From Ricordea florida (lineage: Eukaryota; Cnidaria; Anthozoa; Corallimorpharia; Ricordeidae), in the NCBI GenBank assembly GCA_949710005.1, contig OX453279.1, positions 15,282,256 through 15,346,255 of the forward strand: 64,000 bases of DNA, in the 5' to 3' direction. The translations under genes were made by a program, and so were the position numbers. Position 1 is the stretch's first letter; each line of letters starts with the position of its first letter. Under the pieces are notes generated by a model that worked only from the letters and a program-made list of their open reading frames with translations, was not told the origin of the DNA and did not search any database. Shown here piece after piece: positions 8,291 through 59,500 of this stretch.

Positions 8291-8362
8291 GTCCGTGTTG
8301 CAATCGGTTAGCATGTCAGGCTGTTAAACGAAAGGTTGGTGGTTCGAGCCCACCCAAGGACG
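8291..8362 (+). pseudogene. tRNA-Asn(GTT)-like pseudogene, unit 3
   Basis: It is identical in its tRNA-like core to the unit 1 copy: GTT anticodon, disrupted anticodon stem and two bases short before the D stem. Confidence 0.75.
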
Positions 8363-9015
8363 ATGCCTTTTACTACTTATCGCAAAATGGATATATTGCA
8401 CTCTTTTCTGTTCATGTGGCTAATCGTGACCTGAATCAGGGTTTCGCTTAGGCTTTGTATGTAATCTTTCAATCAAATTCTAGATTCCCTTTTCACTTTC
8501 ATAGTTGTCTAGTTGACGAAACTTGCTGAGAAACGTTATGCATCAGTTTAGATGCATGGAGAAAAAGGGTTGAAATCGAACCGTACGTTAACAATACCAC
8601 TCTCAATATCTTAAAGACCTATAAATACTTACATTCTATTTACTTCAAGATTTTAGTTAACAAGTTGCATTTTAGAAGTCGTTTATCATGCCGACTCCGA
8701 ATACTTGACATCGTTCCTGTTCCTAACCCATGATAACGAAAACCTTTGAATCAGCTGTGTACACTTGATGTAACTTTCGAAGGAAATTTGGGGGATTTAA
8801 TAACTAAGTCGACTAAGATTTTCCATTCTCCCAGATTCCTTATTTAGTGAGATTCTTTCACCTTTGCTGTCTGTAGTCTAGCCTAGCAAAAAGAAGCTCG
8901 ATAACAGTTTCAAAACACAGAACATTATGAGTGGTGCAAGGAAGGAAAAGCAAGGAAAAGCGTCAGTTAAAATAACGTTATAAAAAGTAAAATTACCGTA
9001 AAAAAAACAACCACA

Positions 9016-9088
9016 CGACCCAGCCAGGAGTCGAACCTGGAATCCCCTGATTCGTAGTCAGATGCCTTATCTATTGGGCCACTGGGCC
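9016..9088 (-). tRNA. tRNA-Arg(ACG), unit 3, D-loop change
   Basis: It has the same cloverleaf as unit 2 except that the D loop reads AATAGATA instead of AATGGATA, removing one of the two G residues that contact the T loop and that also lie in the A box. It could be damaged. The T-run terminator is present. The Helentron stack starts about 540 bp to the right. Confidence 0.8.
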
Positions 9089-25171: not shown

Positions 25172-28100
25172 GTACCATCGGTGGGCACTCTCTCCGCGTG
25201 GCCTTCTTCAATATACTCATTCATGGTTGCGTTGTACTTGGAGAACAAATCTTCGTCTCTGAGTAGACGCTTCTTCAGAAGTGCAGCTCGTCGCTCAACC
25301 ATAAGCCTGTTATTTGGCAGATAAGGGGGGTTTGTTCGCCATGGAAGCCCTACTTGAAAGCGTCCATTTATTACTTTCAGTGACTGTTCCATCATTTCTA
25401 ATGCTCTCTTATCCTCGATCGAAGGACTCACTCTCGAACTCACAACAGAATCTGCAAAGTCAGTGCTCCAAAGTCTCTCAAGTTGCTCCTGCAAAATTTC
25501 GTCACGGATTTGACGCTTGGTGTCTTCTTCATCACAAAGCGATATCCCGTCTACTGCACTACTAACACTTGACCTTTCGATCGCACCTTTGATGTTACGT
25601 GGTTCGGTACTGCCGTCTCTAAGCGACTGCTCTACATCAATGTAAAACTCTTTGTTTCCAAGGCGAACGAAGTTGACGGAACAACGCTCATCAGCTCTTG
25701 TCCCGCTCAGAGGACCCATAACCGTCCAACCCAAGGGATATCGCACTGCTACCGGCTCGCCATCTCCACCTGATCTGCACTCTAATGGGATAAACAGTGT
25801 AGGTTTCTCTTTAAGGCCAATTATTAGACCAACATCTGACACACTAGATTCCAACAACTCGACGTCTCTCAAATGAGGCCAATTTGAAATGTCGTCCTTT
25901 CGTGGAATGCAAGTGGAGGACACGGGTATCTGCTCAACAGTCCTAACATTCGTCAGCTCTTCTGAGACTTTGTTATCCATGGACATCACAACAATGTCTA
26001 TCACATGTCCTTCAACTTTCCTGGTCCCCGTCACCCCTTGCAACTCATAATTACGTTTTAGTCCCCACGATCCAAGCTCAAGAGAGAGTTGCTCCTTGCA
26101 TAAGGTTACCTCACTACCACTGTCCAATAGGGCATAAGTCTCCACAACTCTTCCTCCTCCCTTTGCTCTAACTTTAACAGGAACAACCCCCAAGCAGACA
26201 CGCCTTTCACCGGCCCCAGTTGCTACAGTAACAGAAGCTCTGCCACCACTCTGACCATCTTGATTGGTTCTGCTTGTTGCACTCGTATAACCCATCCCTG
26301 TATTGGTCTGCTGAGGGTTTTCTTCCAAAGCGGGAGGGGTGGGATGTAACAGAGTGTTATGATCCTCGACACAACCTTGTACTTGACACTTAAATGTTTC
26401 CTTAGGACAACGGTCTTTGAAATGCCCACCACTAAGGCACTTGAAACACAGTCTCTTGTTCAGTATTGTTTTTACTCTGTCCCGGCTTGAAAGGTCTCTA
26501 AACTTCTCACACCTCCACAGCCCATGTTGTCCCGAACATACTGGACAGCTCCTATTTATACCAATTTCTCTTCTTGCACCGCTTTGTTTTTCGCTGTGAT
26601 CAGGGTCGACATTGGTCGCTAAGGTGGTCATCCTTGTTAGAGTTCTTCCCCTTTTGTCTTCGCTTTCTGGGCTCGCAATCAGATCCCCAAATTCATTGTT
26701 TACCAGCTTTGCTCTGTGCTTCACAAACTTTAACAAATCAGAGAACTTTGGTCTTCCACCAGCTTCAATAACTTTGCCAGCACACTCTGCCCACTTTCCT
26801 CTCAAAAAAAAGGGAAGTTTTCTGCTCAACTCCATTAAGGTGTTTGAGTGGTTTAAGTCATCGACATAATCCGGACCCATGCCCCTAAGGGTTCTATCTG
26901 CTATTTCAAGATGTCTTGCAAACTCCAACAATGTTGACCCTGCACAATTCTTTAATGGTGGTAGGTTCTCCAACTTCTTCAGATGAGCTTTAGCAATTAT
27001 GTGAGGTAGACCAAAGTTCTCCTTCAAAGTTTCCTTTGGAGTTTTGTAACCCTCTGACACTGGCAAGTTAACACAACTTTCGATTGCCTCTCGTGCTACA
27101 CCCCTGCAATGTTGAATAAGGAGTTGCAGGTTTCTAGAATTGTTCGTGCTGTCTTCCAGACAGGTCTCGAAGTTGTGTATGAACGATGCATAGTTAATTG
27201 GGTCTCCGTTAAAGTGCATGTATTCTAACTTTGGGGTACTCATGACTTGGCTCAAAGTTTTAACTATTTGTTCCCTGGCATCAAACTGCGCTGGTGATTG
27301 CTTTACTGGGGCCTGAACCTCCTGGATTGGGGGCGACTGTTCATATTCATGTTTTGTCCCCCAACAACCTCTGTAAGGTGAGCTTGCCGGTGGGTTTAAT
27401 GCAGCATCTCCCTGCGGAGACGATCCTGGTTGCTCATTTCCCCCAACAATTGGTAACTTTGATTCACGGCCTGAGGTAACTGGTAATGGAGGGGTTAGAC
27501 CATGTGGAAATTCTTCAAGTTTAGGCTTAATATCTGAATGATACAAGACATCTTCCTTGCAATCTACATCCCCTAACGCCTCCAAATCAAACTGGTTTTT
27601 TTCTATCAAACGAGGTGTCTCATGGTCAATCGCACCGGCCCCACTTTCAGAATCAAAAATACTAAAACTGACATAGGCCTTCTCAGCTTCCATTTCGGCC
27701 TCCATTAATTCCCGTGCGTGATTAAGTTCAGTTAATCTGAGTTGAAGCTCTTGCCTTTTCTTCAAATGTTCCACTTTAAGTTTTGTTAAAATCATTTTTT
27801 CCCTTCGAGCATCAAACCCACTATAAACTGAGTTACAGCTGATTTCAGTACTCACGGTTTTCGCGCCCTTTCTTTCACTTGACCTCATGCTTCCTTCAAT
27901 GGTCTTTGATCCACAGACGACGCGCATTTGTTTCACAATCTCGTCCAATTCCAATTTCTTTGCAAACTCTTCGTCGTACATGGTTTGGGCACCGTTCCTT
28001 TTAAATCCTGGCTCTGTTAATTCCATAAAACATTCATGGGTTTTCACAAACTTCCTCCATGTTTCTTCGTACACCGCCAACCTTACTTCTAAACCCTCTG

Positions 28101-28293
28101 ACAATATATCTCCTCTTTCGATTCGCAAATTAGCAATTTCCTCACGCGTTTTCCTTAGCATCCCGATTAACCCAGCTTTGGATCTCTTCAATTGCTCAGC
28201 CCTCTCAGCTCGATCCTCTTCTTCATTTCTCCTTGTCGAATACGTTCGTACTCGAGTTCCCTTTCGGGCGGCAGGACGTGAGCGAGTAGACAT
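25153..28293 (-). CDS. BEL/Pao Gag-protease and start of RT
   Basis: 1046 codons. Residues 1 to about 230 are charged and coiled-coil-like. A Pao-type Gag follows ([17 protein letters not shown] near 350), then Cys/His knuckles around 590-650 ([27 protein letters not shown]) and an aspartic protease with [11 protein letters not shown] near 723. The frame continues into the beginning of RT and ends at 25153. It starts at an ATG 40 bp inside the 5' LTR. In related BEL elements Gag, protease and RT form one frame, so the end at 25153 is a frameshift, not a natural stop. Confidence 0.92.
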
Positions 28294-29291: not shown

Positions 29292-32200
29292 TTAAAAGTG
29301 TTGGTAAATCCTGGATGTGTTGTCTGCTAAGTCAAGTAGTCTTTGTTCTTCTGTCAGTCGTTCTTGCAAACGCTTACACTTACCTATGCCCTGAAGTCTT
29401 TGGAATGGCATTGGCTGAATTACAGCATGCTGTAAAGACCGAACTCTTGATGCAGCAACAAAGGTACATCCTGCTGCTCTTTCTGATTTTCCAATGTCTA
29501 TTACTACTTTATTTAGTGTTTGTCCTTGTGACTTGTGAATAGTCATTGCATAGCTTAATCGAAGTGGCAATTGAAGGCGAGAAAGTTTCTTGTTATCATC
29601 TTCCCATTCAAACCGTTGAGGTGGTACAGGTATAGAACGGGGGTCATGATCTATGAAGGCTGGACCTCTGTAGTGGGGAAAGTGTACAAGTACAGCTATG
29701 GGTAAGCATGGTGGTGGTTTATCTGGGTGAAACAGGAGTTCCTGAACTGTGCCAACTGTCCCATTGCACAGTCCAACTTCTTGCCAAAGGTTAGAAGTGA
29801 GCATGACAGTTGCACCTCGAGAAAGGAACACTTCAGACTGCAGTCCTCCTGCATCATCAGCCTTTGCAGCACTGGCTCCTACACCTGAGTGAACTGCTGA
29901 TATTCTTGCAATAGGATTACCAAGTGTGCACAGCTTCTCATAGTTGTACCTTGCAACATTTTCCTTATCATAGAACAGTCGTACCGCATCTTTGAAGTTT
30001 TCCATGTTTATGTTTTGTGGCGCTCTTTCTTGAAGTTTGTGCCAGTCTTTCTCTGTTATTCTTCCATCTCTCATCCTCAAAAGTAGTTCTCTAAAGGCCT
30101 CTGCTTCAGGGTTATTTCCATTCTGTCGAACATTCTCATTCAATACAACCACATTTTCAAACAGAGTATAAACTGAATAGCCCTGTTGTGCTAACACAGT
30201 AGCTGCTGGTGGTGAATAAAGTGGTCTATCTCCTACAGGTGGTAACTGTGCAAAGTCACCAAAGAGAATTACTGAATATCCTCCCAGAGGTGTGTTGAGT
30301 TTTCCTGAGGCTTGACGTAGACGCTTGTCAACCCATGCCAAAGTTCTCTGTCCAAGCATTGAGAATTCATCTATAATGAGATAATGTTTACCCTGTAATC
30401 TGAGTTGTAGACGTTGTAAGGCTGCTCCTTGCAAATCTGTTTTGTTTAGAGTGCGTACTGGTAGTTGTAAGGTAGAGTGAAGAGTGCTTCCAGAAATGTT
30501 GAAACCTGCAATTCCAGTTGTTCCTGTGAGAATACACTGATCTCCCAGAAGATGAGTCAATGCATTAATAAGAAATGACTTTCCTGTTCCAGCAGTTCCT
30601 GTGATAATCATGTGAAGAGGTTCTGTAGGTACATTTTCAATTAGGCGTCTTTTGTGTTGCTGAACAGTGCTGTATGCAAGATTTTGTCTTTGGTTCAGTG
30701 CTGTTAAATCCACAGGTTGCCTTTCCATTTCTTGTATGTTTGCAGCTTCTCTCACTTCATTTTGTTGTTTTGCTATCCACTTCTCTGATTCCCGAAGGAG
30801 GTCTGGAGGCATATTTCTTGATGCAGCTGTCCAGTCAAAATCAGGTGCATCATCATTAGCTGTGCTGTTAGTGAAGTCTTGGTTAAACCTACAAAGCAGC
30901 ATCCATTCTTCAACTTCCTCTTGCTGTTGGTGCATCATATTCTCATCATCCTCACCGTCATTTTCATCCCCATCATTTTCACTGTTCCTATTGTGTACCA
31001 TTGCTTGTTCAAGCTCCTGTGCAAATGTTGGTATACACCGCTGTCCAGTCTCAGAATTGAGGAAGTTCTTATAGCATTCAATGAGCACTTCATCACTTTC
31101 CTCAAGTCCATCCCATGCAGAGTCTACTGATTGATTCCATGGCTTGTACTTTACCAGCTGAAATTTACAGTACTTACCATAATTCTTACCAGAAGGATTT
31201 GGAGAAAATACTGGAAAGCTTCTGATTATCACCTCCTGTTTTCGTTTTCTTATCTCTCCCTTTGTAATATAAAAATCTGATGCAAACTGGAGTAGATTTA
31301 GTAGCATAATTCCTGGAACTTGTTCTTGCCACTGAACCCTTGATGCATAATGATCACGTAATGAGAGATCCAAAGCACTGTCACCTTGGTTTACTTCTTC
31401 ACCTTGTCCTCCACGTACTCTTCTGGTTCCATCCAGTGAAATGCAGAGAAAGTTGTAAGTACAGTTGTACAAGGGTTTTCCAAGAAGCATATGAGCTGTT
31501 TCCTGAGATCCAATGTCACGTTCTCCTGCAACTTGAATCATTGCTCGGCGTAAAGCAGATGATGCACTGTCTGTATGGCGTAACTTATTGATGGCAGATT
31601 GGAGAATCTCTGTTGCCTGTTGAGATCTTGGCTCACCTTTGGTAGCATACTTGGCCATATAGCGAATGCATTGGTCAGTGTCAACAATTGCTTGCAAATC
31701 CACATTTGCTCTCCAGTTCTGAAGCATTAAACGATTGTGTGAGTTGATACGGTCATCATTCCTCTTTGTGATAAGTGAAGCTCTTACTCTTGCGTCCATT
31801 ATCTGCTGCACTGTCAGTTCATCTTGTCCACCATTATTTCCCTTAACAATTAGCTCAAAGTCAATGTTTGTCTGTTCTGTGCAATCCTTTGGGTAATTGA
31901 ATCGGCAATGTGGTTGTTGTCCAGGTTTGCTACGTAAACAATATGCTGTACTGCACCTGGTGTGACGTTCCACTGAATTAACCAGAGAGTGGTAGTCATC
32001 ATTTTCATTTCCAGTTTCTTGAATGGGTATGGCAGAGGGATGTGGGTTTGGTACTGTCCAATTTCCATCTGGAAGATTCTCATTCATGGTGGTGAGAAGC
32101 CAGTCTGCATATTGAATAACTCTTGCTTTGGCTTCAATTCCTGCTTCTATAGCTGGTGTGAAGTCATTTACCATTTCTTGATAATTTGATTCTTCATGTT

Positions 32201-34211
32201 GCCTGTCCAATATTTGCTTAAGCTTCCACCCTTGAGCAGCTTTCTTTACAAGTTCACAGAGTCCTGGGTCATTCTTGAGCTTTGCACAACCATGTGCATG
32301 TATACTTCCCCTAGCTTGCCATTCATAACGAAGCCATTTCCATTCAGCATACAAAACTTCATCCAACCAATGTTTATTGAATTCTTCAAGTCTTGCTACG
32401 AAGTGGGAGTCTGTGATATGTGGATGGTTTATGACAGCTTTTATCCGTATAGCAGGTGTTGCATTGTTTGGTTCCTCCAGCAGTCTATGAAGATCGGGCC
32501 AGTAATTGTCAGCTGCACTAAATGTGAAGAAAAATGTTGGTGCTCCCTTCTGTTCTATAAGAGCTTTAAGTTCCAAGTAGCGTTGATACCAGTATTGTCT
32601 TGTTCCTTGAATCTTTGCCACATAACGCTGAACTCTGTTCATGAGTTGCTGTGCAGACATCTGTCCAACCATTTCTTGTAGTTCTTCTGTGGTAAGGTTA
32701 GCATCTTGAGGGTTCTGAGTGAGGTAAACCCTAGCTTGTGACAGCAACTGATGTCTCTGCTTCATGTTTAGTGCCCAGTATGGAAACCTTGGATGGGATG
32801 CAAATCTACATACAAACTGCCCTGTTGACAAATGTTCTGCATACCTTATAAGGTGTTTAAAACCCTCAGTTAATGTTACCTCCCTTAATCTTCTCTTGTT
32901 TGTGGGGTCTCCTCTTCCATGTGGAAACAGTGTGGGGAAGGCCATTGTAGCCAGTCCTTTTGACTGAAATTCATTGATGGGATCTCCTTCATTAGATGGC
33001 CAGTCCAGTGGGTCTTCACCATTAATAAAGGCACGAATAGCGTCTTGTTCCTGTAGTTGAACCTGTTGAAAAGGAAGGTAAGAACTGCTGTCCTGTTCAC
33101 TACTATTTGCTTCATTCTGGGGAAGTGCCTGTTCAGATATTTCTTGTGCCTGCTGTTCTTCTTCTGTCTCTTGGACATTAACTGAAGGCAAATTTGTTGG
33201 AACTCCATCATGTGGTAGGCACTCAATAGCTTCATGGTTGATTTCAATGTCTGAGTAGTAGGGATTGTTGTCCTTTAGCCATGCCAGTGCTTGCATCACC
33301 TTGTGTCTTCTAACTCTGCAGTCCCTGCTGCTGTTGTCTGCACCATGTCGCCTTATCACAAGGAAGGGAAGTTCTTCTACATTGGGTGGCAGTCTTGTGA
33401 TGAATCCTTGAATGTCTTGAGGAAGGTTCAACACATGTCCTTTGTAGCCACGCTGTCCTCCATGCTTACGATAAATACACATTATTGGGCAAGCTCTAGC
33501 AATAAGCATCTCCTCTACATCTGTAAGATTCTGTAGTTCATCTGGTACTGTGCCCGGATCCATGTCATTCTCCGCTGAAAACAGTTTTGTAGTTTCTTTA
33601 TCCCTCTTACATCTTAGGCACTGGTATGTCTGAAGAGTAAGTCCTTGCACAGTTTCTGTTCCCCTTATCCTGGCAGTATTTTCACGTAAAATCGTTAATC
33701 TGTTTTGCCGTTCGTCTTCTGATTCTGTCTGTACTCTGTTAGCAGTATTTTCGCGTAAAATCGTTAATCTGTTTTGCCGTTCGTCTTCTGATTCTGTCTG
33801 TATTCTGTTAGCAGTATTTTCCCGTAAAATCGTTAATCTGTTTTTCCGTTCGTCTTGTGATTCTGTCCGTATTCTGTTAGCAGTATTTTCGCGTAAGATC
33901 CTTAATCTGATTTGCCGCTCGTCTTGTGATTCAGTCTGTATTCTGTTAGCTGAATTTTGTCTCAGTATTTGTAGTCGCTGTTGTCGATGTTCGTTAGTTT
34001 CGTTATGAAATCGTTCTGTCACGTTTTGTCTAGCTAAAGCAAGTCTTCGTTGTCTATCACTAACACATTCAGTTTCAAACATACCTTGGTTGTATTGCCT
34101 GTGGTAATCCAGTCTTAGGCATTTACACAAGTTGCTCGGCAACGTTTTGGCAACTTTTGCCTTTTCGAGCAACTTTTTGGCAACTTTTGGATTTGAGCAA
34201 CTTTCCGGCAA
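29292..34211 (-). CDS. Helentron Rep-helicase (rolling-circle transposase)
   Basis: 1639 codons. The first 35 or so come from the MITE and are not native. Residues about 45-190 are Arg/Glu/Asn-rich 23-residue repeats (RLTILRENTANRIQTESEDE). The HUH endonuclease has GSIHAHG near 635 and the tyrosine motif YMAKYATKGE near 852. A PIF1-type SF1 helicase follows, with Walker A GTAGTGKS near 1207, Walker B IIDEFS near 1280 and TIHKSQGQT near 1559. The product nicks and unwinds element DNA for rolling-circle transposition. It is the only such gene here and explains the HINEs around it. I see no OTU or AP-endonuclease domain. The true start is beyond the MITE, near 35039. Confidence 0.93.
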   Translation of the reverse strand: MPESCSNPKVAKKLLEKAKVAKTLPSNLCKCLRLDYHRQYNQGMFETECVSDRQRRLALARQNVTERFHNETNEHRQQRLQILRQNSANRIQTESQDERQIRLRILRENTANRIRTESQDERKNRLTILRENTANRIQTESEDERQNRLTILRENTANRVQTESEDERQNRLTILRENTARIRGTETVQGLTLQTYQCLRCKRDKETTKLFSAENDMDPGTVPDELQNLTDVEEMLIARACPIMCIYRKHGGQRGYKGHVLNLPQDIQGFITRLPPNVEELPFLVIRRHGADNSSRDCRVRRHKVMQALAWLKDNNPYYSDIEINHEAIECLPHDGVPTNLPSVNVQETEEEQQAQEISEQALPQNEANSSEQDSSSYLPFQQVQLQEQDAIRAFINGEDPLDWPSNEGDPINEFQSKGLATMAFPTLFPHGRGDPTNKRRLREVTLTEGFKHLIRYAEHLSTGQFVCRFASHPRFPYWALNMKQRHQLLSQARVYLTQNPQDANLTTEELQEMVGQMSAQQLMNRVQRYVAKIQGTRQYWYQRYLELKALIEQKGAPTFFFTFSAADNYWPDLHRLLEEPNNATPAIRIKAVINHPHITDSHFVARLEEFNKHWLDEVLYAEWKWLRYEWQARGSIHAHGCAKLKNDPGLCELVKKAAQGWKLKQILDRQHEESNYQEMVNDFTPAIEAGIEAKARVIQYADWLLTTMNENLPDGNWTVPNPHPSAIPIQETGNENDDYHSLVNSVERHTRCSTAYCLRSKPGQQPHCRFNYPKDCTEQTNIDFELIVKGNNGGQDELTVQQIMDARVRASLITKRNDDRINSHNRLMLQNWRANVDLQAIVDTDQCIRYMAKYATKGEPRSQQATEILQSAINKLRHTDSASSALRRAMIQVAGERDIGSQETAHMLLGKPLYNCTYNFLCISLDGTRRVRGGQGEEVNQGDSALDLSLRDHYASRVQWQEQVPGIMLLNLLQFASDFYITKGEIRKRKQEVIIRSFPVFSPNPSGKNYGKYCKFQLVKYKPWNQSVDSAWDGLEESDEVLIECYKNFLNSETGQRCIPTFAQELEQAMVHNRNSENDGDENDGEDDENMMHQQQEEVEEWMLLCRFNQDFTNSTANDDAPDFDWTAASRNMPPDLLRESEKWIAKQQNEVREAANIQEMERQPVDLTALNQRQNLAYSTVQQHKRRLIENVPTEPLHMIITGTAGTGKSFLINALTHLLGDQCILTGTTGIAGFNISGSTLHSTLQLPVRTLNKTDLQGAALQRLQLRLQGKHYLIIDEFSMLGQRTLAWVDKRLRQASGKLNTPLGGYSVILFGDFAQLPPVGDRPLYSPPAATVLAQQGYSVYTLFENVVVLNENVRQNGNNPEAEAFRELLLRMRDGRITEKDWHKLQERAPQNINMENFKDAVRLFYDKENVARYNYEKLCTLGNPIARISAVHSGVGASAAKADDAGGLQSEVFLSRGATVMLTSNLWQEVGLCNGTVGTVQELLFHPDKPPPCLPIAVLVHFPHYRGPAFIDHDPRSIPVPPQRFEWEDDNKKLSRLQLPLRLSYAMTIHKSQGQTLNKVVIDIGKSERAAGCTFVAASRVRSLQHAVIQPMPFQRLQGIGKCKRLQERLTEEQRLLDLADNTSRIYQHF
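33664..33965 (-). repeat. 69-bp coding tandem repeat in the Rep-helicase gene
   Basis: About four to five copies of a 69-bp unit encode the 23-residue repeats. The central copies are nearly identical at DNA level (CGTAAAATCGTTAATCTG, GCCGTTCGTCTTCTGATTCT), and the outer ones diverge. Confidence 0.85.
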
Positions 34212-36745: not shown

Positions 36746-36818
36746 CGACCCAGCCAGGAGTCGAACCTGGAATCTCCTGATTCGTAGTCAGATGCCTTAT
36801 CCACTGGGCCACTGGGCC
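36746..36818 (-). tRNA. tRNA-Arg(ACG), unit 4, apparently intact
   Basis: The cloverleaf and T-run terminator are complete. Differences from unit 2 are A-to-G in the D loop (AGTGGATA, a tolerated purine position) and a variable-loop change. The anticodon is ACG. Confidence 0.92.
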
Positions 36819-37072: not shown

Positions 37073-39515
37073 GTTCCTAATATAACTGCCCAATGGCGGT
37101 TATTTAGTCAGAGATGTTTAAGTTCACCGTCATAAATATTGAAAATTTCATTAAGTTCAAGCAGTTCAGTGCTCTGCATGAGCATTATAGTAACTGTATT
37201 CTTCAATAATAGTATCACCCTAGAGTAAAGTTAGGCATAATTTCTGTTTTATAGGAACCTGGCGACTGAATTAGGAAATTTCAAGTAGCGAGCTAGACAT
37301 GTGGGACCATTGATAACTTTCATATCTTGTTTTTATCTACAAACACAGTCACTGTGAATGTTTCGGTTAAGAAGATTCCATTTCTCTTCTTTAAGAATGG
37401 ATAGTGGGATAGAGTACATGCCAACTGCACCTTAAACGACATGGCTTTACTCTTTCCCGCTGCCTAACTGAACTTCAAAGGGGACTTTATGTTTACATTT
37501 CCTTCAAAACTGGTTTCTTTCAGGTATGATCATGGAATTAGAATTGAGCAATGCCATATATTCATACGTCGAATCTGGTGATGAAATAAGATAGCGTTGT
37601 AACAAATTCTTAACAGTGTTTCACTGGAAGTTGTTACAGAAAATCTTTTCTAAAAGCTGGAATATTGACACCGTTATCTTAAAAAGTGAGTTGCTTCGTT
37701 CCTTTTGTATCAGTTTATAACACAAGCCAGTTAAATGCGAGCTAACAGTTAAATAAATAGTAGAATATATTTGTGTCATATCGTGAAAAGTTTTCTTTCC
37801 TCCAAAGAGCAATTGATTACCCCTAATTCTGTAAAGTTATGTTTTGACCATTTGCTTCATGTAACAAAGTTAGTATTTCGAGAGGCTCTCGCAGAAACCT
37901 GAACTGATGGCTTTAATTCCTTTATTTGAATTTAATTCCAGAGTTACTTAGTTTTCAATATGGCAATCACGGTCTGTACCTGTGCCCAGCAAATACTTGA
38001 CAGATAGAAGTCTATCAAAAAACTTGGAGTTTATTTTAAATAGAATACGAATTGCGACTTGCGAGGAGAGTACAGAGCAACAGAAATGGGAAGGATGAAA
38101 GAAATGTAAACCGCCTGCCGTCCACCTTTGATCCTCCTGCCATATATGGATGCAGGCCCGCTATTGATTATTTAGTGTGATCATGTGATCATGACCCCAG
38201 CTACTGAGAAAGCTTTTTAGTTATTTCAAAATTCACATCGGTTGGCTTGGTCACAAAAACAGGTCGTTTTGAGATTTTGTTTTGTGAACAAAAAATGCGA
38301 TTGAATTACGTGCTCCACGGTTAGTAGAGAATATTACCTAGTCCTTTGCATCAGCTTTACAGACTTCACAATGTACAATACAAAATATGATTGTGCACCC
38401 CTTGGTCCTTGACGAGTTTAGTTTCTGAACTTTGAAATCAGAATTGGATCGAAAGAATGCAACAAGTAGCCTTGTTTTGGCAAACGTTTGACTTTCTGAT
38501 GAGATTCTAATGGCCTCTACTGCCAAGGCTTCCGTTTCCTTGCCGTCAACTTTGAAAACAGATTGCTTTGGTAATTTCCTGCGCTGCTAATTGAACAATT
38601 TTTTCATGAATTTCCTTCCAATTAAATTCAAGAACCTTACTTCCGAGATGCCGGTTACAATTATCAAACAAAGAATACTTCGTGTCAATCCAGCAAGTCC
38701 TCGGCAAAAAGCCCTGCCTAGATCTGGAAATAGATACATGTACCAGCACCAAGCAGCTCGCATACTATCACCAATGATACAGTGTGATTTGCCAAAACTT
38801 TGAGCCTTATTCAATAAATCAAATATTCGCATTGCATATGGAAATAAAGTTGGAGATTTAATTCGAGTTAACACCACCTTACGCAGTTATGATTTAACTC
38901 GAAAAGAAGAAAAAAAGAACAGACAGGGTTGGAATCGAGATCGCGGTTTCAAATCTCATTCGGCGAAATCGTAACTGCTTAAGATTGCCAGTCGACAACG
39001 TTTAGCTACAATGCTCAATATCTATTTTTCTAGAGTAAAATATGGCGAGATTCACTGCGGTTTGTCCATTGATATTTCTAAATAGTGATATCCCGTCTTG
39101 TGTAAAACATTTATTGGAGCATAAAAGGCACAGAAAAAAATCAGCTAATATAGGGACATAAGTTAAAACTCGTTGTTTTTCTTAATCCCAATAGCCACAC
39201 TTGGTTCTCCGACAATAGCATCTTTGGAAAACTTCTACGTGTGAAAGTAACATATTTTTGGCATCAAGCATTGCGCGTTTTTTGACGTCTGCTCTGGGCC
39301 AATCAGATTGCAAAAATAAGCAGTATATTAATTTTAAAATTGATGAAATGAATGGATTTATTCCATGTTGTCCTAAGTATTTGCATCCTGCAGCTGTGAG
39401 CGAGATCTGCAACTGACTCAGTTCAAGAAGACCGTGCGTCCAATAGTAATAATTGTTCAAAAGTCGAATTCCAACAAACATAGGACAATCCTGCTGCTAT
39501 AACTGCAAAAGCTAG
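37073..39515. other. Host-like non-coding DNA, nothing recognised
   Basis: Short open frames here lack splice sites and family resemblance. There is no clear repeat. The left edge is the broken unit 4, and the right edge is the target duplication of the Gypsy element. Confidence 0.4.
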
Positions 39516-39667
39516 TGTAGTGTCTTTGTATTAGCAAAATACCATTGAGTTGTATCAGCATGCATTGTGGGTAAGAACCGGAGGATCCTGGTTGAATAAA
39601 GATGGCGTGTTGCAGGAAACAGTTGTTATAGGTTTCTCAATCCGTACTAATCCGTTGAGATAGTACA
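39516..39667 (+). repeat. 5' LTR of the Gypsy element
   Basis: 152 bp, TGTAGTGTCTTTG...AGATAGTACA, identical to the 3' LTR. Confidence 0.95.
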
Positions 39668-39697
39668 ATTTGGCGACGAGGATTATCATCAGAAAGC

Positions 39698-41125
39698 ATG
39701 ACGACAGCAATACAGACAGATCTGGGAGGGATACCTTTATTTGACTGCAAAGGAGAACCCACGACAGTCGGAGCACGATGGAGGAAATGGCGTCGAGCAT
39801 TTGAGTTTTTTGTAGAAGGAAAAGGAGTTAAGGATCCGAAGCAGATGAAAGCTTTACTCCTTCACTGTGGAGGTATGGATTTACAAGATGTATATTTCAC
39901 GTTACCTGCAGCCCCAGAACCAGGGGAAGGCGAAACCGTGTTTACTGTCGCTATGAAACAACTCGAGCAGCACTTCACACCTCAAGTGAATGTCCCATTT
40001 GAGCGACACTTGTTTAGAAATATGGCACAACTTCCCACTGAATCTATCGACCAGTACGTTACAAGACTTCGACAGAAAGCAGATTACTGTCAATTTGAAG
40101 AGAAAATAGATGAAAACATCAGAGATCAAGTGATAGAGAAGTGTTTATCGAACAGCCTGCGAACAAAGCTCCTTGAGAAAGGCGCCGGTCTTACCTTAAG
40201 TCAGCTGCAAACAATGGCACGAGCTATGGAAGCGAGTACTACACAGGCTGATAGTATTGCTAGCTCTAATACAACCCATGAAGTAAATAGAGTCCAACAC
40301 AAGCGTGAAAAGCCCAAACAACAGAGAAACCCAAGGTTGGATGATAAAGAAAGGAGATGCTACAGATGTGATAACTTAGGACATCTAAGTTCAGATGAAA
40401 AATGCCCTGCAAGAGGAAAGAGGTGTAACAAATGTCACGGAAATGGACATTTTGCAAAATGCTGCAAAAGTAAGAAAAAGCACAATGATCAGAAACCCAG
40501 AGGAGGTAAACATACAGCTAATCTTGTCGAGACAGAAGAGGAGGAATTTGCTTTTGTTGTGTGTGGAAAAGCCCAACCTGAATTGGTATTGGATGTTGGT
40601 GGTGTACCAAGTGTCAAGTTCATAATCGACTCTGGAGCAAGCTGTAATGTGATTGACCGAGAATTATGGGAGACACTCAAGAAAAGTAAAGTGAAGTGTG
40701 TGTCAAGAACATGCCAGAAGAAGCTGTTTGCCTATGGTAGTACCAAACCACTTAAAGTAGCAGGAAGCTTCACAGCATCCATCCAGCTTGGAGAACAAAC
40801 CCAGAATGCAGAATTCATTGTTATCGAAGGGAAAGGCCAAGCTCTTCTAGGTCGACATACAGCAACACAGCTCGGTGTTTTAAAGATCACTGACCCTAAC
40901 AGCTCTAGTGTCAACGTTGTAGACGAGGAAAACACCCGTGACAAGCTACTCAAGACATATGAAAAATGCTTTCAAGGAATTGGCAAGCTAAAAGATTTCC
41001 AACTCGAGATACCGATAGACAAGACTGTCAACCCAGTAGCTCAACAACCTCGACGAATACCTTTAAGCCAGAGAGCAAAGCTAGAAGAGAAGCTAGATGA
41101 ATTACTGCGGAAAGTTTATCCCTGA
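39698..41125 (+). CDS. Gypsy Gag and aspartic protease
   Basis: 475 codons from the ATG 30 bp after the 5' LTR. Gag capsid-like helices occupy about residues 25-190. Two zinc knuckles follow at about 220-258 (CYRCDNLGHLSSDEKC, CNKCHGNGHFAKCC). The aspartic protease has FIIDSGASCNVID near 308 and LLGRHTATQLGV near 390. The frame then enters the usual pre-RT linker (RIPLSQRAKLEEKLDELLRK) and stops nine bases later at 41125, because RT is deleted. In intact relatives this frame continues through RT, RNase H and integrase. Confidence 0.93.
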   Translation: MTTAIQTDLGGIPLFDCKGEPTTVGARWRKWRRAFEFFVEGKGVKDPKQMKALLLHCGGMDLQDVYFTLPAAPEPGEGETVFTVAMKQLEQHFTPQVNVPFERHLFRNMAQLPTESIDQYVTRLRQKADYCQFEEKIDENIRDQVIEKCLSNSLRTKLLEKGAGLTLSQLQTMARAMEASTTQADSIASSNTTHEVNRVQHKREKPKQQRNPRLDDKERRCYRCDNLGHLSSDEKCPARGKRCNKCHGNGHFAKCCKSKKKHNDQKPRGGKHTANLVETEEEEFAFVVCGKAQPELVLDVGGVPSVKFIIDSGASCNVIDRELWETLKKSKVKCVSRTCQKKLFAYGSTKPLKVAGSFTASIQLGEQTQNAEFIVIEGKGQALLGRHTATQLGVLKITDPNSSSVNVVDEENTRDKLLKTYEKCFQGIGKLKDFQLEIPIDKTVNPVAQQPRRIPLSQRAKLEEKLDELLRKVYP

Positions 41126-43100
41126 CTTAGCTACAGTTGCTGATCCCTTGAGGAAATTGACAAGAAAAGGGGTACCATTTGTCTGGAAAGATGAACACGA
41201 ACACTCTTTTAAGGAACTGAAAAAGAGGCTCACGAACGCTGAGACACTTGCATACTTTGATCTCAAGGCAAAGACAGCAATCATCGCCGATGCCAGCCCT
41301 GTTGGCTTGGGTGCCGTACTCGTACAGACGCAGAAGGGTGAGCCTAGAGTAATCTGTTATGCTAGTAGGAGTTTGTCTGATGTAGAAAGGCGATACTCCC
41401 AAACAGAGAAGGAAGCCCTAGCTCTTGTCTGGGCTTGTAAACGTTTCCATATGTATGTATATGGAGTTGACTTTGATCTCCTGACAGATCATAAGCCTCT
41501 AGAGTTTATCTACTCGAGGAAGTCTAATGCTAGTGCAAGAGTAAACCGATGGGTACTGAGATTACAGCCCTATACGTTTGTTGTGAAACACATCCCTGGA
41601 AAGAGTAACATTGCAGATTCACTTTCACGCCTGACTACTGAAGTCTCTGAGCCAGACCTGAGCACCGAAAACTATGTACGTTATGTCGCTGCAAGTGCTA
41701 CACCTAAAGCCATGTCCACTAGAGAAATAGAAGAAGCATCCGCTAATGATGAAGAGTTGTCCAACTTGAGAAAGTGTTACAGAGAAAACAAATGGAACAA
41801 TTTGCAGAACAAGAGATACCTATTAGTGAAGAACGAGATATCAGTGATTGGAAAACTCGTGCTGAGAGGAACAAGGATTGTCATCCCTGCCAGCCTTCGA
41901 GGGAAAGTACTGCAGATTGCCCATGAAGGACATCCAGGCATAGTTTCTATGAAACGCAGACTTCGAACAAAGGTGTGGTGGCCGGGACTAGACAAAGGGG
42001 CAGAAGAGATATGTAGGACATGCCATCCTTGTCAAGTGGTCGGAGCCCCCAACCCACCAGAACCTGTAGAGAGAACAGAGTTACCGAATGGACCATGGCA
42101 GTACCTAGCAGTAGATCTCATGACACCATGCTTACCATCTGGAGACCATGTCCTTGCTGTTGTGGACTATTATAGTCGGTACGTTGAAATACAGGTCATG
42201 AGATCAACAACAACTGGCAAGATAATTGCAAGTCTGAAACACATGTTCCTGACACATGGACTGCCTATGAGTATTGTGACGGACAACGGACCACAGTTTA
42301 TCAGCGAGGAGTTCAGAAATTTTGTGGAAAGTGAAGGGATCCATCATCGTACGACTACACCCCTTTGGCCTCAGGCAAATGGTGAGATAGAACGTCAGAA
42401 CCGTTCCTTGCTGAAGCGTATTAGAATTGCACAGATTGAGAAGAAAGACTGGAAAGAGGAACTTGGAGCCTACTTAACCATGTACAGGACCACACCCCAC
42501 AGCACCACAGGTGTGAGCCCAGCCGAGTTAATGTTTGGTCGCAAGTTACGCACCCGTCTACCTGGAATTGAAGAGAATACAGTAGAAGATTTAGAAGTCA
42601 AAGACAGAGACAGCGAAGCAAAGGAGAAAGGAAAGATCTACATTGACAAGAGACGTCAAGCTAAGACAAGTGAGATCAAAGAAGGAGATTTGGTCTTGCT
42701 AAAGCAGAAGTCCCTCAGCAAAATGACGCCGCCGTTTGACCCGCAGCCATACAGAGTGGTGTCTAAAGCTGGAAATAGTGTCACAGTTCAATCATCGAGT
42801 GGAGCACAGTATAAGAGGAATTCCTCACATGTAAAGATTTTCAATGAGCCAGAATCACCTTGGCAAGGCAAAGAAGGGAAAGTCAACTGTGAAGAAACAC
42901 CTGAAACAAAGGAAAGCAAGGGAGATAACTCACGTGATGAACCATCTACACGGACACAACCTGACTCAACAGGAAATGCTGCATCCAACGAGGCAACTGT
43001 GCGTATCCAGAGTAATCTCCATGACAGTGAGGTTGCTACACCTGAAGAAGAGAGTTTTACTCGACCTACGAGGCTGAGAAAAGTGCCAACAAAAATTTAA
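41097..43100 (+). CDS. Gypsy RNase H and integrase
   Basis: 667 codons in a second phase, overlapping the upstream frame by 29 bp. It begins at NYCGKFIPDLA, which in Gypsy polyproteins is the segment just after the RT palm. RNase H covers about residues 55-190 (IIADASPVGLGAVL, TEKEALALVWA, LTDHKPL). The integrase zinc site HEGHPG...CRTCHPC lies at about 273-315, and the DDE core at AVDLMT (337), TDNGPQF (394) and GEIERQN (429). A basic tail follows. There is no natural start, and RT (SPVV, FxDDI motifs) is absent upstream. Confidence 0.93.
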   Translation: MNYCGKFIPDLATVADPLRKLTRKGVPFVWKDEHEHSFKELKKRLTNAETLAYFDLKAKTAIIADASPVGLGAVLVQTQKGEPRVICYASRSLSDVERRYSQTEKEALALVWACKRFHMYVYGVDFDLLTDHKPLEFIYSRKSNASARVNRWVLRLQPYTFVVKHIPGKSNIADSLSRLTTEVSEPDLSTENYVRYVAASATPKAMSTREIEEASANDEELSNLRKCYRENKWNNLQNKRYLLVKNEISVIGKLVLRGTRIVIPASLRGKVLQIAHEGHPGIVSMKRRLRTKVWWPGLDKGAEEICRTCHPCQVVGAPNPPEPVERTELPNGPWQYLAVDLMTPCLPSGDHVLAVVDYYSRYVEIQVMRSTTTGKIIASLKHMFLTHGLPMSIVTDNGPQFISEEFRNFVESEGIHHRTTTPLWPQANGEIERQNRSLLKRIRIAQIEKKDWKEELGAYLTMYRTTPHSTTGVSPAELMFGRKLRTRLPGIEENTVEDLEVKDRDSEAKEKGKIYIDKRRQAKTSEIKEGDLVLLKQKSLSKMTPPFDPQPYRVVSKAGNSVTVQSSSGAQYKRNSSHVKIFNEPESPWQGKEGKVNCEETPETKESKGDNSRDEPSTRTQPDSTGNAASNEATVRIQSNLHDSEVATPEEESFTRPTRLRKVPTKI

Positions 43101-43266
43101 AGACTTTGAACTTTACAAGTGAACAACATTTAAAGATTTTGACCTTTGAGAACTTGAAACTCTTTGATGAACTTTGTTAGAGACCATAACAACCGCTTTT
43201 GACTTTGTTGTTGTTTATTAAGTTTTTCACAAAGGCATATGATTATTCTTCTAAAAGGGGAGGGAT

Positions 43267-43418
43267 TGTAGTGTCTTTGTATTAGCAAAATACCATTGAG
43301 TTGTATCAGCATGCATTGTGGGTAAGAACCGGAGGATCCTGGTTGAATAAAGATGGCGTGTTGCAGGAAACAGTTGTTATAGGTTTCTCAATCCGTACTA
43401 ATCCGTTGAGATAGTACA
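43267..43418 (+). repeat. 3' LTR of the Gypsy element
   Basis: 152 bp, preceded by the polypurine tract and followed by target duplication GCTAG. Confidence 0.95.
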
Positions 43419-43716
43419 GCTAGTACAGCACTTTTATCCCATTGCTTTCCTTGAAACTTCCCGGATAACCTGAGAGATCGACATACTTGGGTTGATAAGA
43501 GCAACTACAAGTGACGACTCATTGTAAACAAGTATAAAGATCAATTAAAATAACATATTTTTTGAACCGGAGGGTTTCATATTTTTAGCTTTCTTTAAGG
43601 TTTCAAAACGTTTTAGTGGAATTCGAGTCATGCGCAATGTAGCAATAAGGGAGATGGTTTGTTAGCAAATTCTTTAAATATTTCAACAGATGAAAAACGT
43701 CATTCAGATATGTAAC

Positions 43717-43783
43717 CGCCGACCGGTTGGCTCAGTTGGTAAAGTGCCGGACTCGGAAGGTTGTGGTTTCACGCTCCGGCCAA

Positions 43784-43822
<39 letters not shown>

Positions 43823-48030: not shown

Positions 48031-48526
48031 GTTAATAGCGGGGCTCCCGCGCGCGAAGCGCGCGCGGAGCAGAGCCCCATACTCATGGAATATGGTCAAC
48101 CTCTTTTCGTTTGGTTGTCACGTGACTGACCGAGCGTACGTACGTCCGTACGTCCGTACGTACGCGTCTACAGATTGTACGGGTAGGGTAGGGGAGACTA
48201 TCAAAAGGAAGGGAGGGGTATCTCAGGCTTGTCTTGGCAAATCCACATCTTTTATATTGGACATTCACAATATGGTCAATTGACAGCTGTCAAAACGGGA
48301 TAGCCACTGACCAGCATCACATGACCAAATTGTGGGCTCATGTGTCAACTCATCGAGGTGACGTGATTTATTTGGAAGCTGTTCTGGTTGCCCGCATATT
48401 TTTGGCGGGAAATTGCGTTGACGACTGAAAAAGAAATTTTCAGTTCATTGTCTTTTTGAGACACAATATTACTACTCTACACTGTTGAAGTTTTACTAAA
48501 GGATAAACGAAACAATTTCTATTGCT

Positions 48527-49097
48527 ATGTCAACAAACAATAGCAGAGAAAATATAATTTGCAGAACACAGGGTTCAGGTGAAGAGCAACGGGAAAGAGA
48601 GCAAGAATTAACTGAGGAAGAATGAGCGAAGTACTGTAGATCGCCAAAGAAGGCGCGCTCGGGAAAGAGAAAGGAGACGAAATCATAGCGAAGAACGCCG
48701 GCAAGCAGAAAGAGTCCGGGCGCGAGAAAATAGACAAAATGTTAACGAAGAACGCCGAGAAGCGGAAAGATTCCGTGCTGTGGAAAACAGACAAAATTGT
48801 AGCGAAGAGTGCCGAGAAGCGGAAAGACTTCGTGCTGTGGAAAACAGACAAAATTTTAGCGAAGAAAGCCGAGAAGTGGAAAGACTTCGTGCTGTGGAAA
48901 ACAGACAAAATTGTAGCGAAGAGTGCCGAGAAGCGGAAAGACTTCGTGCTGTGGAAAACAGACAAAATTGTAGCGAAGAAAGCCGAGAAGTGGAAAGACT
49001 CCGTGCTATGGACCCGGCAAATTTGCATAAGTTTTGTCTGCATAATATTTGCTCACTGATGCGTGACTCAGCACTCGCACTTTCCACTTTCCCTTAA
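48527..49097 (+). pseudogene. Helentron-like Arg-rich N-terminal coding remnant
   Basis: An ATG at 48527 opens MSTNNSRENIICRTQG and meets a stop after 32 codons. A frame change near there leads into an Arg/Glu-rich stretch (RQRRRARERERRR), then five 19-residue repeats (RAVENRQNCSEECREAERL) and a short end at 49097. The composition and repeat style parallel the 23-residue repeats of the Rep-helicase at 33664-33965, but the sequence is different. No Rep or helicase follows. Confidence 0.5.
48665..49012 (+). repeat. 57-bp tandem repeat, about five copies
   Basis: The unit contains GAAAACAGACAAAATT, GTAGCGAAGAG, GCCGAGAAGCGGAAAG and ACTTCGTGCTGTG. Two subtypes alternate (AGTGCCGAGAAGCGG and AAAGCCGAGAAGTGG), which suggests duplication of a 114-bp pair. 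Confidence 0.85.
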
Positions 49098-54899: not shown

Positions 54900-56558
54900 A
54901 TGTCCAACAAGAAAGTGAGAGCAGGTCATCGTGGATTCTTTAAGAAAGTCCTCGAAGACGTTGACGGGTGTCTCGAGAACGAATTTACCACTGTCAGAAA
55001 GTCTGAATTGCAGAAATGGAAAGTCAACTTGAAAGAACAGCTCGACAAGATTTTGCCGTTAGATGAGCAGATTCTGGCCGAGTTAGCAGCGGATGAAAAA
55101 GTGACAGAAGAAGAGATAGCGGATGAGATCGAACGGAGTGGCCGATTGAAAGCAGACGCAACGCAAAGGTTGGCTGAAATCGAGGAACGACTGGCCGAGC
55201 TCGCTGCCCCGCCCGCCCCACCCTTTTCACCGCCAGAAAAACAGGGGAATCCATCACTAAGCCAGTCGAATCATCTCTTCCATCCCAGTCCGTCAAGTAG
55301 CCAACAAAAGTCGGTGCGAGTGAAACTACCAAAGCTGGAGGTACGGAAGTTTAATGGAAAACTTGGAGAGTGGCAGGAGTTCTGGGACTCGTTTGAAAGT
55401 TCCATTCACTTGAACGATGGGCTTTCGAACGTGGACAAATTCTCATACCTGAGAAACTTGTTACTGGAACCAGCAAGATCGGCAATTGGAGGATTTGCGC
55501 TGACGTCCGCGAATTACCAGTCAGCAGTGGAATTGCTAAAGAAACGATATGGTAAAAAGATCGCAATCCAAAGAGCACTTGTAAACGAACTGTTGAATGC
55601 GCGTCCCGTATTCAATGAAAGCGACACACCCAGACTGCGTAGCTTCTATGACTTCGCAGAAACGAAGTATAGAGCGCTAGAGGCGTTGGAAGTGGAGGAA
55701 CAAAACTACTCCGAAATTGTCGTCCCGATGCTGCTAGAGAAGATCCCTGACTCCATTTGGCTGACGATCACGAGAGGGAAAGATTACTTGCATTGGTCAT
55801 TGGGGAACATGTTGAATGCACTCCTGGTCGAGGTGGAGCTAAGAGAGGACCAGTGTTTGACACCGCGCCGAGCCACACCCAGCGAGGGAAGTAAGGGTCC
55901 TCACACCACAAGTGCATTGTTCGCAAAGAAAGGAGATGATCGAAGATGCGCGTTCTGCCTTGGAAATCATCAACCGGAGGAATGCAAGAAGGTCACGAAC
56001 ATTGATGAACGTAAGAAACTGTTATTTAAATTTGGTAGATGTTTTAGATGTATTGACCGGGGGCACCGCGCCCGAGATTGTAAATTTACTGCAAAATGTA
56101 AAATTTGTAAGGGTTTTCACAACACGTGTTTGTGTGACGCAAAATCGCAGCAGCCCCCAGGGGGAGATGGTGGTCAAACCACAATAACGAGTAGTCCGAA
56201 TACCATGCTCGTGGGTACGGAAAGTAGAATTGCACTTCAAACTGCTCAAGCCTTAATCAAGGGGAGCGCACAGGGGAGGGTGAGAGTTCTATTTGACTCA
56301 GGAAGTCATAAGTCCTTCGTAACAGCTAAGGCCGCGAGTAATTATGGCTTAGAAGTTGTAAGAAAGGAGTGGGTAAGCATTAATACGTTCGGGCATACAG
56401 CCAAAGAAACGGGATTGAGGGAAGTTGTTCAGTTTGACATAATGCCTCTACAGGCCGATCGGGCGCTAAGACTTGAAGCTTATGTTGTGCCGGAAATATC
56501 CAACATAACCAACGAGCACGTAGAGGTCGTCAAAAAACGGTTACCCACACTTGCGTGA
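54900..56558 (+). CDS. BEL/Pao Gag and first part of protease
   Basis: 552 codons. The N-terminus is charged and coiled-coil-like. A Pao-type Gag core follows (KFNGKLGEWQEFWDSFE near 150), Cys/His knuckles at about 350-412 (CAFCLGNHQPEEC, CFRCIDRGHRARDC, CKICKGFHNTC), and an aspartic protease starting VLFDSGSHKSFVT near 462. It ends at TGA 56556-56558 in the middle of the protease. The protease continues in the next frame, which overlaps by 8 bp in the +1 phase. The shared first-strand junction is CTT GCG TGA. Confidence 0.92.
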   Translation: MSNKKVRAGHRGFFKKVLEDVDGCLENEFTTVRKSELQKWKVNLKEQLDKILPLDEQILAELAADEKVTEEEIADEIERSGRLKADATQRLAEIEERLAELAAPPAPPFSPPEKQGNPSLSQSNHLFHPSPSSSQQKSVRVKLPKLEVRKFNGKLGEWQEFWDSFESSIHLNDGLSNVDKFSYLRNLLLEPARSAIGGFALTSANYQSAVELLKKRYGKKIAIQRALVNELLNARPVFNESDTPRLRSFYDFAETKYRALEALEVEEQNYSEIVVPMLLEKIPDSIWLTITRGKDYLHWSLGNMLNALLVEVELREDQCLTPRRATPSEGSKGPHTTSALFAKKGDDRRCAFCLGNHQPEECKKVTNIDERKKLLFKFGRCFRCIDRGHRARDCKFTAKCKICKGFHNTCLCDAKSQQPPGGDGGQTTITSSPNTMLVGTESRIALQTAQALIKGSAQGRVRVLFDSGSHKSFVTAKAASNYGLEVVRKEWVSINTFGHTAKETGLREVVQFDIMPLQADRALRLEAYVVPEISNITNEHVEVVKKRLPTLA

Positions 56559-59500
56559 TCTGTGGTTTTCAGACGTTTGTCAAACAAAGGAAGAACTCAT
56601 AATAGATTTGCTGATAGGATCGGATTACTTGTGGGAGTTTCAGAAAGGGAGAACGATACGGGGGGAGCCAGAAGAACCCGTAGCAGTAGAGACTGAGCTT
56701 GGATGGGTATTGTCGGGCCCCCTAAAAAGAATTGAGCTAGACAATATACAAGAAGTGTCAGTAAATGTCGTAGCACAGAACAGTGTAGCGATCGACGGAG
56801 ATAGTTTAGAGAGCACAGTTAGAAAGCTGTGGGATTTAGAGAGTTTAGGAATTAAAGCAAGCGATGAGGTACACGAATCGTTCGAGAGCGACATCAACTT
56901 CATTGAAGGTAGGTATTCGGTTAAGTTGCCTTGGAAACAAGGCCACGACACCCTTCCCAGTAATTATGCAAACAGTTTGTCGCGTGTGAAAAGCCAAATT
57001 AAACGATTAAGAAAGGAACCGGAAATACTTGAGGAGTATGATTCTATCATCAAAGAGCAATTAAGTTCGGGTGTTATCGAGATGGTGGCGGAATTGGAGG
57101 GGGCGGGCAAGGTTCATTATTTGCCTCATCAAGCTGTTGTTCGCAAGGACGCAGAGACTACAAAGTTAAGAATAGTTCATGATGCCTCTTCAAAAGAAAG
57201 TAAAAACGGAACTTCCCTGAACGATTGCTTACACACCGGACCATCGTTGAACCCCTTACTTTTTGATATACTTGTAAGGTTTAGGGAAAGTAGGGTCGCA
57301 CTTGTCGGTGACATCGAAAAAGCGTTTTTGAATGTATCAGTTGATGTAAACGATCGCGATTGTTTGAGGTTCCTGTGGGTGGATGACGTGCGTGACAGTA
57401 AATTGAGCGTTTCTGTGTATCGGTTTTGTCGAGTTGTTTTTGGTTTGAATGCGTCACCCTTCCTGCTAAATGGAACAATAAGGCACCACTTAGCAACATT
57501 CGCAGAAGTCGATCCTGAATTTGTTAGAAAAATGGTCGAGAGTTTTTACGTAGACGATCTGGTTTCGGGTGAGAGCACCTCCGACAAAGCGTACGAGCTG
57601 TATAGCAAGGCAAAGGCCAGAATGGCAAACGGAGGGTTCAACTTGCGAAAGTGGAAAACCAATTGCCCGCAGTTGAAAGAGAAAATCGGGTCGATTGAGA
57701 CGCCCAAAACAAAACAGGAAATGGTGAGAAGACTAAAAGACGAAGAAACGTATGCAAAGTCTAAGTTAGAATCCCAAGGGGGGACACAGGGAGAAAAGGT
57801 TCTGGGTGTTATGTGGAATTGTGAATCGGACACCTTCCACCTTAGTCTCGCACATATCGCAGAAAAGGCGAAAGTTCTAGAACCCACTAAACGTAACGTT
57901 TTGAGTTTGTTAGCTAGCTTGTTTGATCCTTTGGGGCTGATTAGCCCAGTGACGGTTAGCATGAAGATTCTGTTTCAGGAAATTTGTAGTAGCGGGCTTG
58001 ATTGGGACGAAACGTTGACAGGGGAAATTAAAGTGCGATTGTGCAAATGGGTCGAAGATTTGTTGCTAACGAGGGAAATTAAGGTTAGTAGGTGTCTGTA
58101 TGAGACGTGTGAGAGTGTGACAGAGTGTTATTTGCATGGGTTTGGAGACGCGAGTAAGAGAGCGTACTGTGCCATGGTTTACCTCGTGTACCGTACGGCT
58201 GCTGGTCAGGCCCATGTGAGCCTGGTTGCAAGTAAGACGAGAGTCGCTCCCTTGAAACAACTCTCCATTCCACGGTTGGAATTGATGTCAGCGAGAATAC
58301 TAGCACAACTAATGAACACGGTGCGTAACGCGTTACTGTCACAGGTAAAGGTAGGTGGCGTGAGATTTTGGATGGATAGCAAAACGGCGCTAAGCTGGAT
58401 CCAAAACAAGGGCGAATGGAAGCAGTTTGTACGGCACAGAGTAGACGAGATTCTCAGGCTGACAAACAAGGAGGAATGGGGGTATTGTTCGACTTTGGAG
58501 AACCCGGCAGATCTTGGTTCAAGAGGAGTGCTAGCTTCGCAACTGAAGGAGGACGAACTTTGGTGGCGTGGCCCGCGATGGTTGACAGGACAGAAAGAAG
58601 ATTGGCCAGTCACAAACGAGGACTTTCAAACTCCCGATACCACATCCGAAGAAAAGAAGAGCACATCAGTAATGTTGGTCGAAACGAAAGAAGAGACTGC
58701 AGTAGTGGTAAACGTGAAAGATTGCAGTAAGTTGCAAAGGTTAGTGTGTGTGACTGCTTGGGTGAGACGGTTCGTGAACAATTTAAAGGCGAGCTTGAAG
58801 CGAAATGAAATCATAAAACGGACAGGTAAGTTGGAAGTGGGGGAGCTAAAGGAGGCGGAGATCGAATTGATTAAGATGGTCCAAAACGAATTGAAGAAGC
58901 AAAGCAACTTCAAACAGCTGGTAAGTGACCTTGGCGTTGTAGAGCAAGGAGGGGTTTTAAGATGCATTGGTAGGCTTGTCAATACAGATTTAGGGTTCGA
59001 TGCTAGAAGACCCATCATTCTACCTAGAAAGAACCACTTGACTAAATTGATTATACGAGATTGTCATGAAAGGGTACACCACAATGGTGTAAGGGCCACA
59101 TTAGCCGAATTGCGATCAAAGTACTGGGTGCCAAGGGACAGACAAGAGGTGAAAGGGGTCCTGAGCAAGTGCGTTACTTGTAAGAAGCTTAAGGTAAGGC
59201 CGTACAGTTCCCCACCAACCGCCGCACTGCCAGAATTTAGAGTCGCGGAGGCCCCACCATTTTCGAAGGCAGGTGTAGACTTTGCAGGGCCCCTCTACGT
59301 CAAGGGTAAAACAGGAGAAATGGAGAAAGTTTACATTGCGTTGTTTTCGTGTTGCGTGACCAGAGCGGTTCACCTAGAATTAGTAGGAGATTTGACTGTC
59401 CCCGCTTTTAGACGTTGTTTGAGAAGGTTCACTGCGAAAAATGGAACGCCTGCGCTCATAGTATCTGACAACGCAAAAACATTTCAAGCAACCGAGAAAG

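Follow-up and report, generated by a model that had tools for sequence, protein, structure and literature searches.

The window, a stretch of DNA of 64,000 nucleotides (C8:15282256-15346255 in its own assembly of 537.8 Mb and 48 contigs), contains at 39516-43418 a Ty3/Gypsy copy of 3,903 bp that is a complete LTR retrotransposon except for the missing reverse transcriptase (RT). This copy has lost 644 bp between two short imperfect repeats, and its exact junction occurs a single time in the assembly. We consider it to be one defective copy of a small, young family, in which the deletion probably arose by a template jump during the reverse transcription that made it. Rather than a new kind of mobile element, it seems to represent a single accident of a common sort.

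Structure of the window copy

Judged from its ends and domains, the element is of the Ty3/Gypsy type. Near-identical TG...CA LTRs and a target site duplication (TSD) of 4-6 bp, the criterion for such elements, are both present: the 152-bp LTRs (TGTAGT...AGTACA) at 39516-39667 (5′ LTR, plus strand) and 43267-43418 (3′ LTR, plus strand) show no difference and are framed by GCTAG at 39511-39515 and 43419-43423. By eye and from position, a probable primer binding site region (39668-39683, plus strand) directly inside the 5′ LTR and a probable polypurine tract (43253-43266, plus strand) were located at the expected places. ORF1 (39698-41125, plus strand) encodes gag, a CCHC knuckle, an aspartic protease and the start of the protease-RT linker; Pfam yielded Asp_protease_2 at 2e-6, and the gag and zf-CCHC matches were weak and under their cut-offs. 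ORF2 (41097-43100, plus strand) overlaps ORF1 in a different frame and encodes RNase H (RT_RNaseH, 8.7e-33), an H2C2 zinc finger (Integrase_H2C2, 7.5e-16) and the integrase core (rve, 9.7e-12). In neither ORF1 nor ORF2 did Pfam detect RVT_1 at a threshold of E 0.1. The domain order in the window is thus protease, RNase H and integrase, and in a relative the RT lies between protease and RNase H.

Comparison with Ty3 Gag-Pol (PDB 7q5b, 4ol8) revealed the same order of domains. ORF2 aligned from its first residue to residues 831-1328 of 7q5b (E 2e-44), and the RT region of a relative aligned to 4ol8 (8.6e-53); this domain is present in the relative copy but missing from the window copy. Up to the join, ORF1 is 99% identical over 420 aa to the database protein P0121. 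A scan of viral_contigs gave no match.

Deletion edges and the two readings of the junction

Reading of 13 relative copies defined the edges of the deletion. Among genomic relatives, the parental sequence is AAGCTAGATGAATTAGAGAAG at the left edge and CGGGCTAGTGAATTACTGCGGAAAG at the right edge (CGGGCTAG-TGAATTACTGCGG), and the junction in the window is AAGCTAGATGAATTACTGCGG. The exact run common to both parental edges is TGAATTA, 7 bp, of which one copy is left at the window join (41098-41104, plus strand) with the breakpoint inside it. Upstream of this run GCTAG is also common to both sites, the left one having one extra A, so that the pair GCTAGATGAATTA (left imperfect copy, 41092-41104, plus strand) and GCTAGTGAATTA agrees at 12/13 positions with a 1-nt gap. 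The following stretch (41105-41129, plus strand) matches the right parental edge only, and the out-of-frame tail of ORF1 begins after 41104. The start codon of ORF2 was created by the join, the A coming from the left site and the TG from the shared run.

Since the loss of 644 bp corresponds to 214 codons plus 2 nt, the frame changes across the join. In terms of P0337, the translated stretch of a relative, the missing part extends from residue 69 to about 280; the RVT_1 match at 90-245 lies wholly within it, and the YDD at 197 is lost as well. The original prediction, that RT had been lost from a Gypsy copy by deletion between two similar sites, is borne out by relatives carrying 644 more bases. 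Its description of the extent as roughly the RT fingers and palm was right as to RT but somewhat understated, given that the entire RVT_1 match is gone.

Breakpoint pairs drawn at random 300-1500 bp apart in one natural relative locus shared at least 7 bases with a frequency of 7.1e-4, so the shared 7-bp run is unlikely to be due to chance. At this spacing, 229 maximal direct repeats measuring 7 bp or more were counted in the same locus, and the repeat pair of the window is therefore not special. Both the shortness of the exact match and the abundance of repeats of that size count against the template jump as preferred explanation.

The sites had been predicted to be similar over 16 bp, on the grounds that the junction can be read as family protein in two frames. 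Both readings of GAATTACTGCGGAAAG, one per frame, are present as claimed. Profiles were built from the best 120 of 3933 database relatives of ORF2 passing the threshold, with segments picked by search expressions, which found the protease-RT linker in 28 and the post-palm segment in 82 of those 120 proteins; in relatives having both, the linker and post-palm anchors are nearly always 201 residues apart. N-Y-C-G-K obtained a good score in the post-palm profile. For E-L-L-R-K the conserved columns of the linker profile are E and L only, and the log-odds for L, R and K in the variable columns were 0.63, -0.01 and -0.82, respectively (28 linkers). The left reading is genuine only through D-E-L: the linker of P0121 is DELEKLDIIEK compared to DELLRKVYP in the window, P0197 also has DELEKLD, and P0241, the closest relative spanning both edges (84% identical to ORF1, 81% to ORF2), combines EELEKLD with VNYCGKF. 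ELLRK is thus in part the right-hand sequence read out of frame, in variable columns. A chance model based on relatives only gave at most 3.7% for such a junction without any repeat, which is suggestive but not decisive. Taken together, column scores and chance model indicate that the protein evidence backs a short shared stretch and not one of 16 bp.

Consequently, of the double reading proposed to fit the family, NYCGKF as post-palm segment holds, whereas ELLRK is real through D-E-L only, the parental linker being DELEKLD. Likewise, a short direct repeat was indeed found at both parental edges, as TGAATTA exact over 7 bp and 12/13 with a 1-nt gap, but a length of 16 bp is contradicted by the parental left edge, which diverges after GAATTA. 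A double reading at a junction together with identical LTRs proves on its own neither a long repeat nor movement in trans.

Two of the database proteins show internal losses of their own: in P0197 RT continues into late integrase, and in P0016 early protease is fused directly to the region of the RT YDD. These could be deletions or gene-model effects.

Copies of the family in the same genome

At least 22 other copies of the family are present in the 537.8-Mb genome. A query spanning the join (40900-41300), for which 40/48 candidates were scored and counts are lower bounds, matched contiguously at the window only, and 21 further copies matched left of the join. In 16 of these 21 copies 644 bp lie between the edges (13 read, one aligned, two by coordinates), confirming the expectation that longer relatives exist in the genome. 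Two of the 21 have 632 bp (one aligned, one by coordinates), two carry a different deletion, and the remaining one, C8:8605827, has the left match without a right-hand match among the candidates scored. The copies with 632 bp, C7:27980127 and C3:10262192, are more diverged and 12 bp shorter between the edges; in the former the missing 12 bp correspond to a gap within the RT region, and in the latter the length was taken from coordinates only. The copies with 644 bp are candidate partners of the window copy, their LTRs differing from those of the window by 0-4 mismatches where measured. When left and right pieces were compared with 17 other copies, the window copy differed from most of them at a few positions, the extremes being 24 and, for a copy covered only in part, 0.

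Exact matches to the left edge numbered 20 and those to the right edge 17, with no hits for backwards controls. The count of copies sharing the junction, proposed as a check of the earlier view, returned one exact occurrence in 537.8 Mb, the window itself, instead of the several insertions expected of a family amplified in trans. With the 3′ end of the element as query (25/25 candidates scored), the window, 22 further copies and fragments on C5 were detected, and all 22 copies could be paired, by eye and position, with copies of another left-edge state. Only these DNA queries, across the join and at the 3′ end, for which counts are lower bounds, exclude a diverged second copy of the junction.

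The identity of the LTRs (0/152 differences) is typical of the family, since among 15 other copies in which both 152-bp LTRs could be compared nine pairs showed no mismatch, five showed one and one showed two. Each of the 15 has a matching 5-bp TSD; that of C10:16628018 is GCTAG, the same letters as in the window, with different bases outside. Of 20 copies considered for this count, those left out of the 15 pairs were C10:25160410 (5′ LTR truncated), C8:8605827 (diverged) and C3:23090299, C1:45357788 and C6:24609573 (one or both LTRs not at the expected place), and the comparison was made without C3:10262192 and the more diverged C1:17380017. As nine of 15 other pairs are identical, the identical LTRs of the window do not date the deletion before the insertion. 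By the rule of three, 0/152 would set the upper 95% limit on LTR divergence at about 2%.

The window copy also carries two private changes. One is a missense change in RNase H, at a position occupied by E in 162/163 relatives in which the search expression matched and showing the other state in 14/14 family copies covering the site. The other alters the length by 1 nt close to where ORF2 ends; the alternative length was seen in 18 of the 19 copies available for comparison, the remaining one having a nearby gap.

The two copies with a different deletion, C6:14361058 and C9:18545919 (loci L009, C6:14359354-14362558, and L025, C9:18544215-18547419), share an in-frame loss of 1,002 bp from mid RT to integrase. 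This deletion lies exactly between perfect 12-bp direct repeats GAAAGTACTGCA, which no other direct repeat spaced by 300-1500 bp exceeds in length within the 3.2-kb locus analysed, and over the extent of the loci the fused frame stays open past the join. In both copies the two LTRs are identical; the TSDs of the copies differ (ATAAC versus CCAAC), as do their upstream parts at four sites. L025 is a mosaic, its four gag-protease sites matching the lineage of C8:279659 and its RT piece matching the main group; recombination between co-packaged RNAs could account for this. Because the C9 copy shares the four upstream sites with another lineage, the 1,002-bp form either moved and recombined or arose twice, and the shared deletion may be recurrent rather than inherited.

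Origin of the deletion and known parallels

We favour a template jump for the 644-bp deletion. During copying of the RNA of a full-length relative, RT would have come off at the right site, with the nascent strand pairing anew at the left site; normal integration of the shortened cDNA would account for the identity of the LTRs and for the 5-bp TSD. The particle of that relative would have provided the RT, so that the deleted form need not have moved again afterwards. A repeat-mediated event is supported by the second deletion in the family, whose ends likewise coincide with direct repeats (12 bp). The same footprint, with one repeat copy kept, is expected if replication slippage or microhomology-mediated repair at the 7-bp sites later removed 644 bp of chromosomal DNA from an intact full-length insertion, and sequence alone does not separate the two, which counts against our preference. 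We regard this later loss as less likely than the template jump. The single exact junction in the assembly agrees with it, and the private RNase H missense and 1-nt ORF2 changes are as in a decaying copy. However, sibling copies carry private changes too, so that decay is not peculiar to the window copy, and LTRs differing at 0/152 positions leave little time for loss in place. An assembly error that joined the two sites and dropped the 644 bp between them is most unlikely: about 20 near-identical family copies could confuse an assembler, but only 7 exact bases are shared, which we infer to be far under read-overlap length, and the copy lies within a 32.7-Mb contig and is flanked by its matching TSD. 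Reverse transcription of a spliced genomic RNA would likewise give an internal deletion with intact ends, but GT...AG ends were found in 0/8 possible alignments of the 644-bp deletion on either strand, which refutes canonical GT-AG splicing as the source and leaves an intron-like loss with practically no probability.

The original prediction had considered the RT-less form to be a non-autonomous element recently moved with RT supplied in trans. The copy has its LTRs and TSD and retains frames for gag, protease, RNase H and integrase, the genome also contains relatives that have kept the RT stretch, and for defective ERVs of cattle this mode of mobilisation has been suggested (PMC10924933). Nevertheless, with the exact junction occurring once against 20 and 17 occurrences of the edges, there is no sign that the RT-less form spread in trans; the 22 other 3′-end copies all pair with another left-edge state, and identical LTRs, from which recent movement had been concluded, are frequent among siblings (9/15). 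We therefore consider such movement of the window copy very unlikely. The idea fits better with the 1,002-bp deletion, whose form may have moved with help and is the better helper-dependent candidate. It is also conceivable, though we think it unlikely, that the family is starting to split off helper-dependent forms, template jumps at short direct repeats having given at least two deletion forms while LTRs were still nearly identical, namely, the 1,002-bp in-frame form (RT front half fused to integrase, two insertions) and the RT-less form of the window, which has the join-made ATG ahead of RNase H-integrase and would not yet have spread.

The template jump as preferred explanation has precedents, and the window copy is another instance of a kind of event already known. 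According to the excerpted text of PMC3187697, a review of retroviral recombination, intramolecular template switching between direct repeats leads to deletions in retroviral reverse transcription, with an internal deletion and one repeat copy kept as in the window. The repeats in those experiments measured 50-701 bp, and the frequency drops with shorter or less similar repeats, whereas here the event is deduced from a genomic Gypsy copy and an exact repeat of 7 bp. For cereal LTR retrotransposons, the corresponding excerpt of PMC1950507 proposes template switching in order to explain fused elements rather than deletions. Catalogued D-type elements resemble the window copy in being young defective copies alongside full-length relatives; in that catalogue they make up 85% of entries, and they dominate new insertions, whereas the window junction was found once. 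ETn, LARD, TRIM and BARE-2 are multi-copy families of non-autonomous LTR retrotransposons. Like the element described here they are LTR-bounded and have part of their coding capacity missing; unlike them, the window element is one copy with this deletion and has kept RNase H and integrase. A search of the literature returned parallels, none of those listed describing this element, which is no proof of its absence from print. Together with its longer relatives, the window copy shows a single Gypsy copy losing RT at a very short repeat, and the family, in which about 20 copies are very young and deletions at direct repeats are of two kinds, offers a modest natural case for the rate of such deletions.

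Several other features were observed in the window. About 300 bp downstream of the element, at about 43716-43800, a stretch has a tRNA-derived (SINE-like) look by eye, for which neither Rfam at gathering score nor ARAGORN made a call. A tandem array of about six 57-nt units (48525-49043, minus strand) lies in an open frame without a Pfam match at E 0.001. A Helitron-type ORF of 1639 aa (29292-34211, minus strand) matches DUF6570, Helitron_like_N and PIF1 as well as an STPR repeat and contains a 69-nt tandem array at 33673-33958. Two BEL/Pao-type elements with peptidase A17, RVT_1 and DUF1759 are located at 23345-28293 (minus strand) and 54900-60297 (plus strand). Finally, four tRNA-Arg(ACG) genes are present on the minus strand (5257-9088 and 36746-36818), three of them spaced about 1.9 kb apart, and Rfam indicated a weak fifth tRNA match at 3300-3371 (plus strand).
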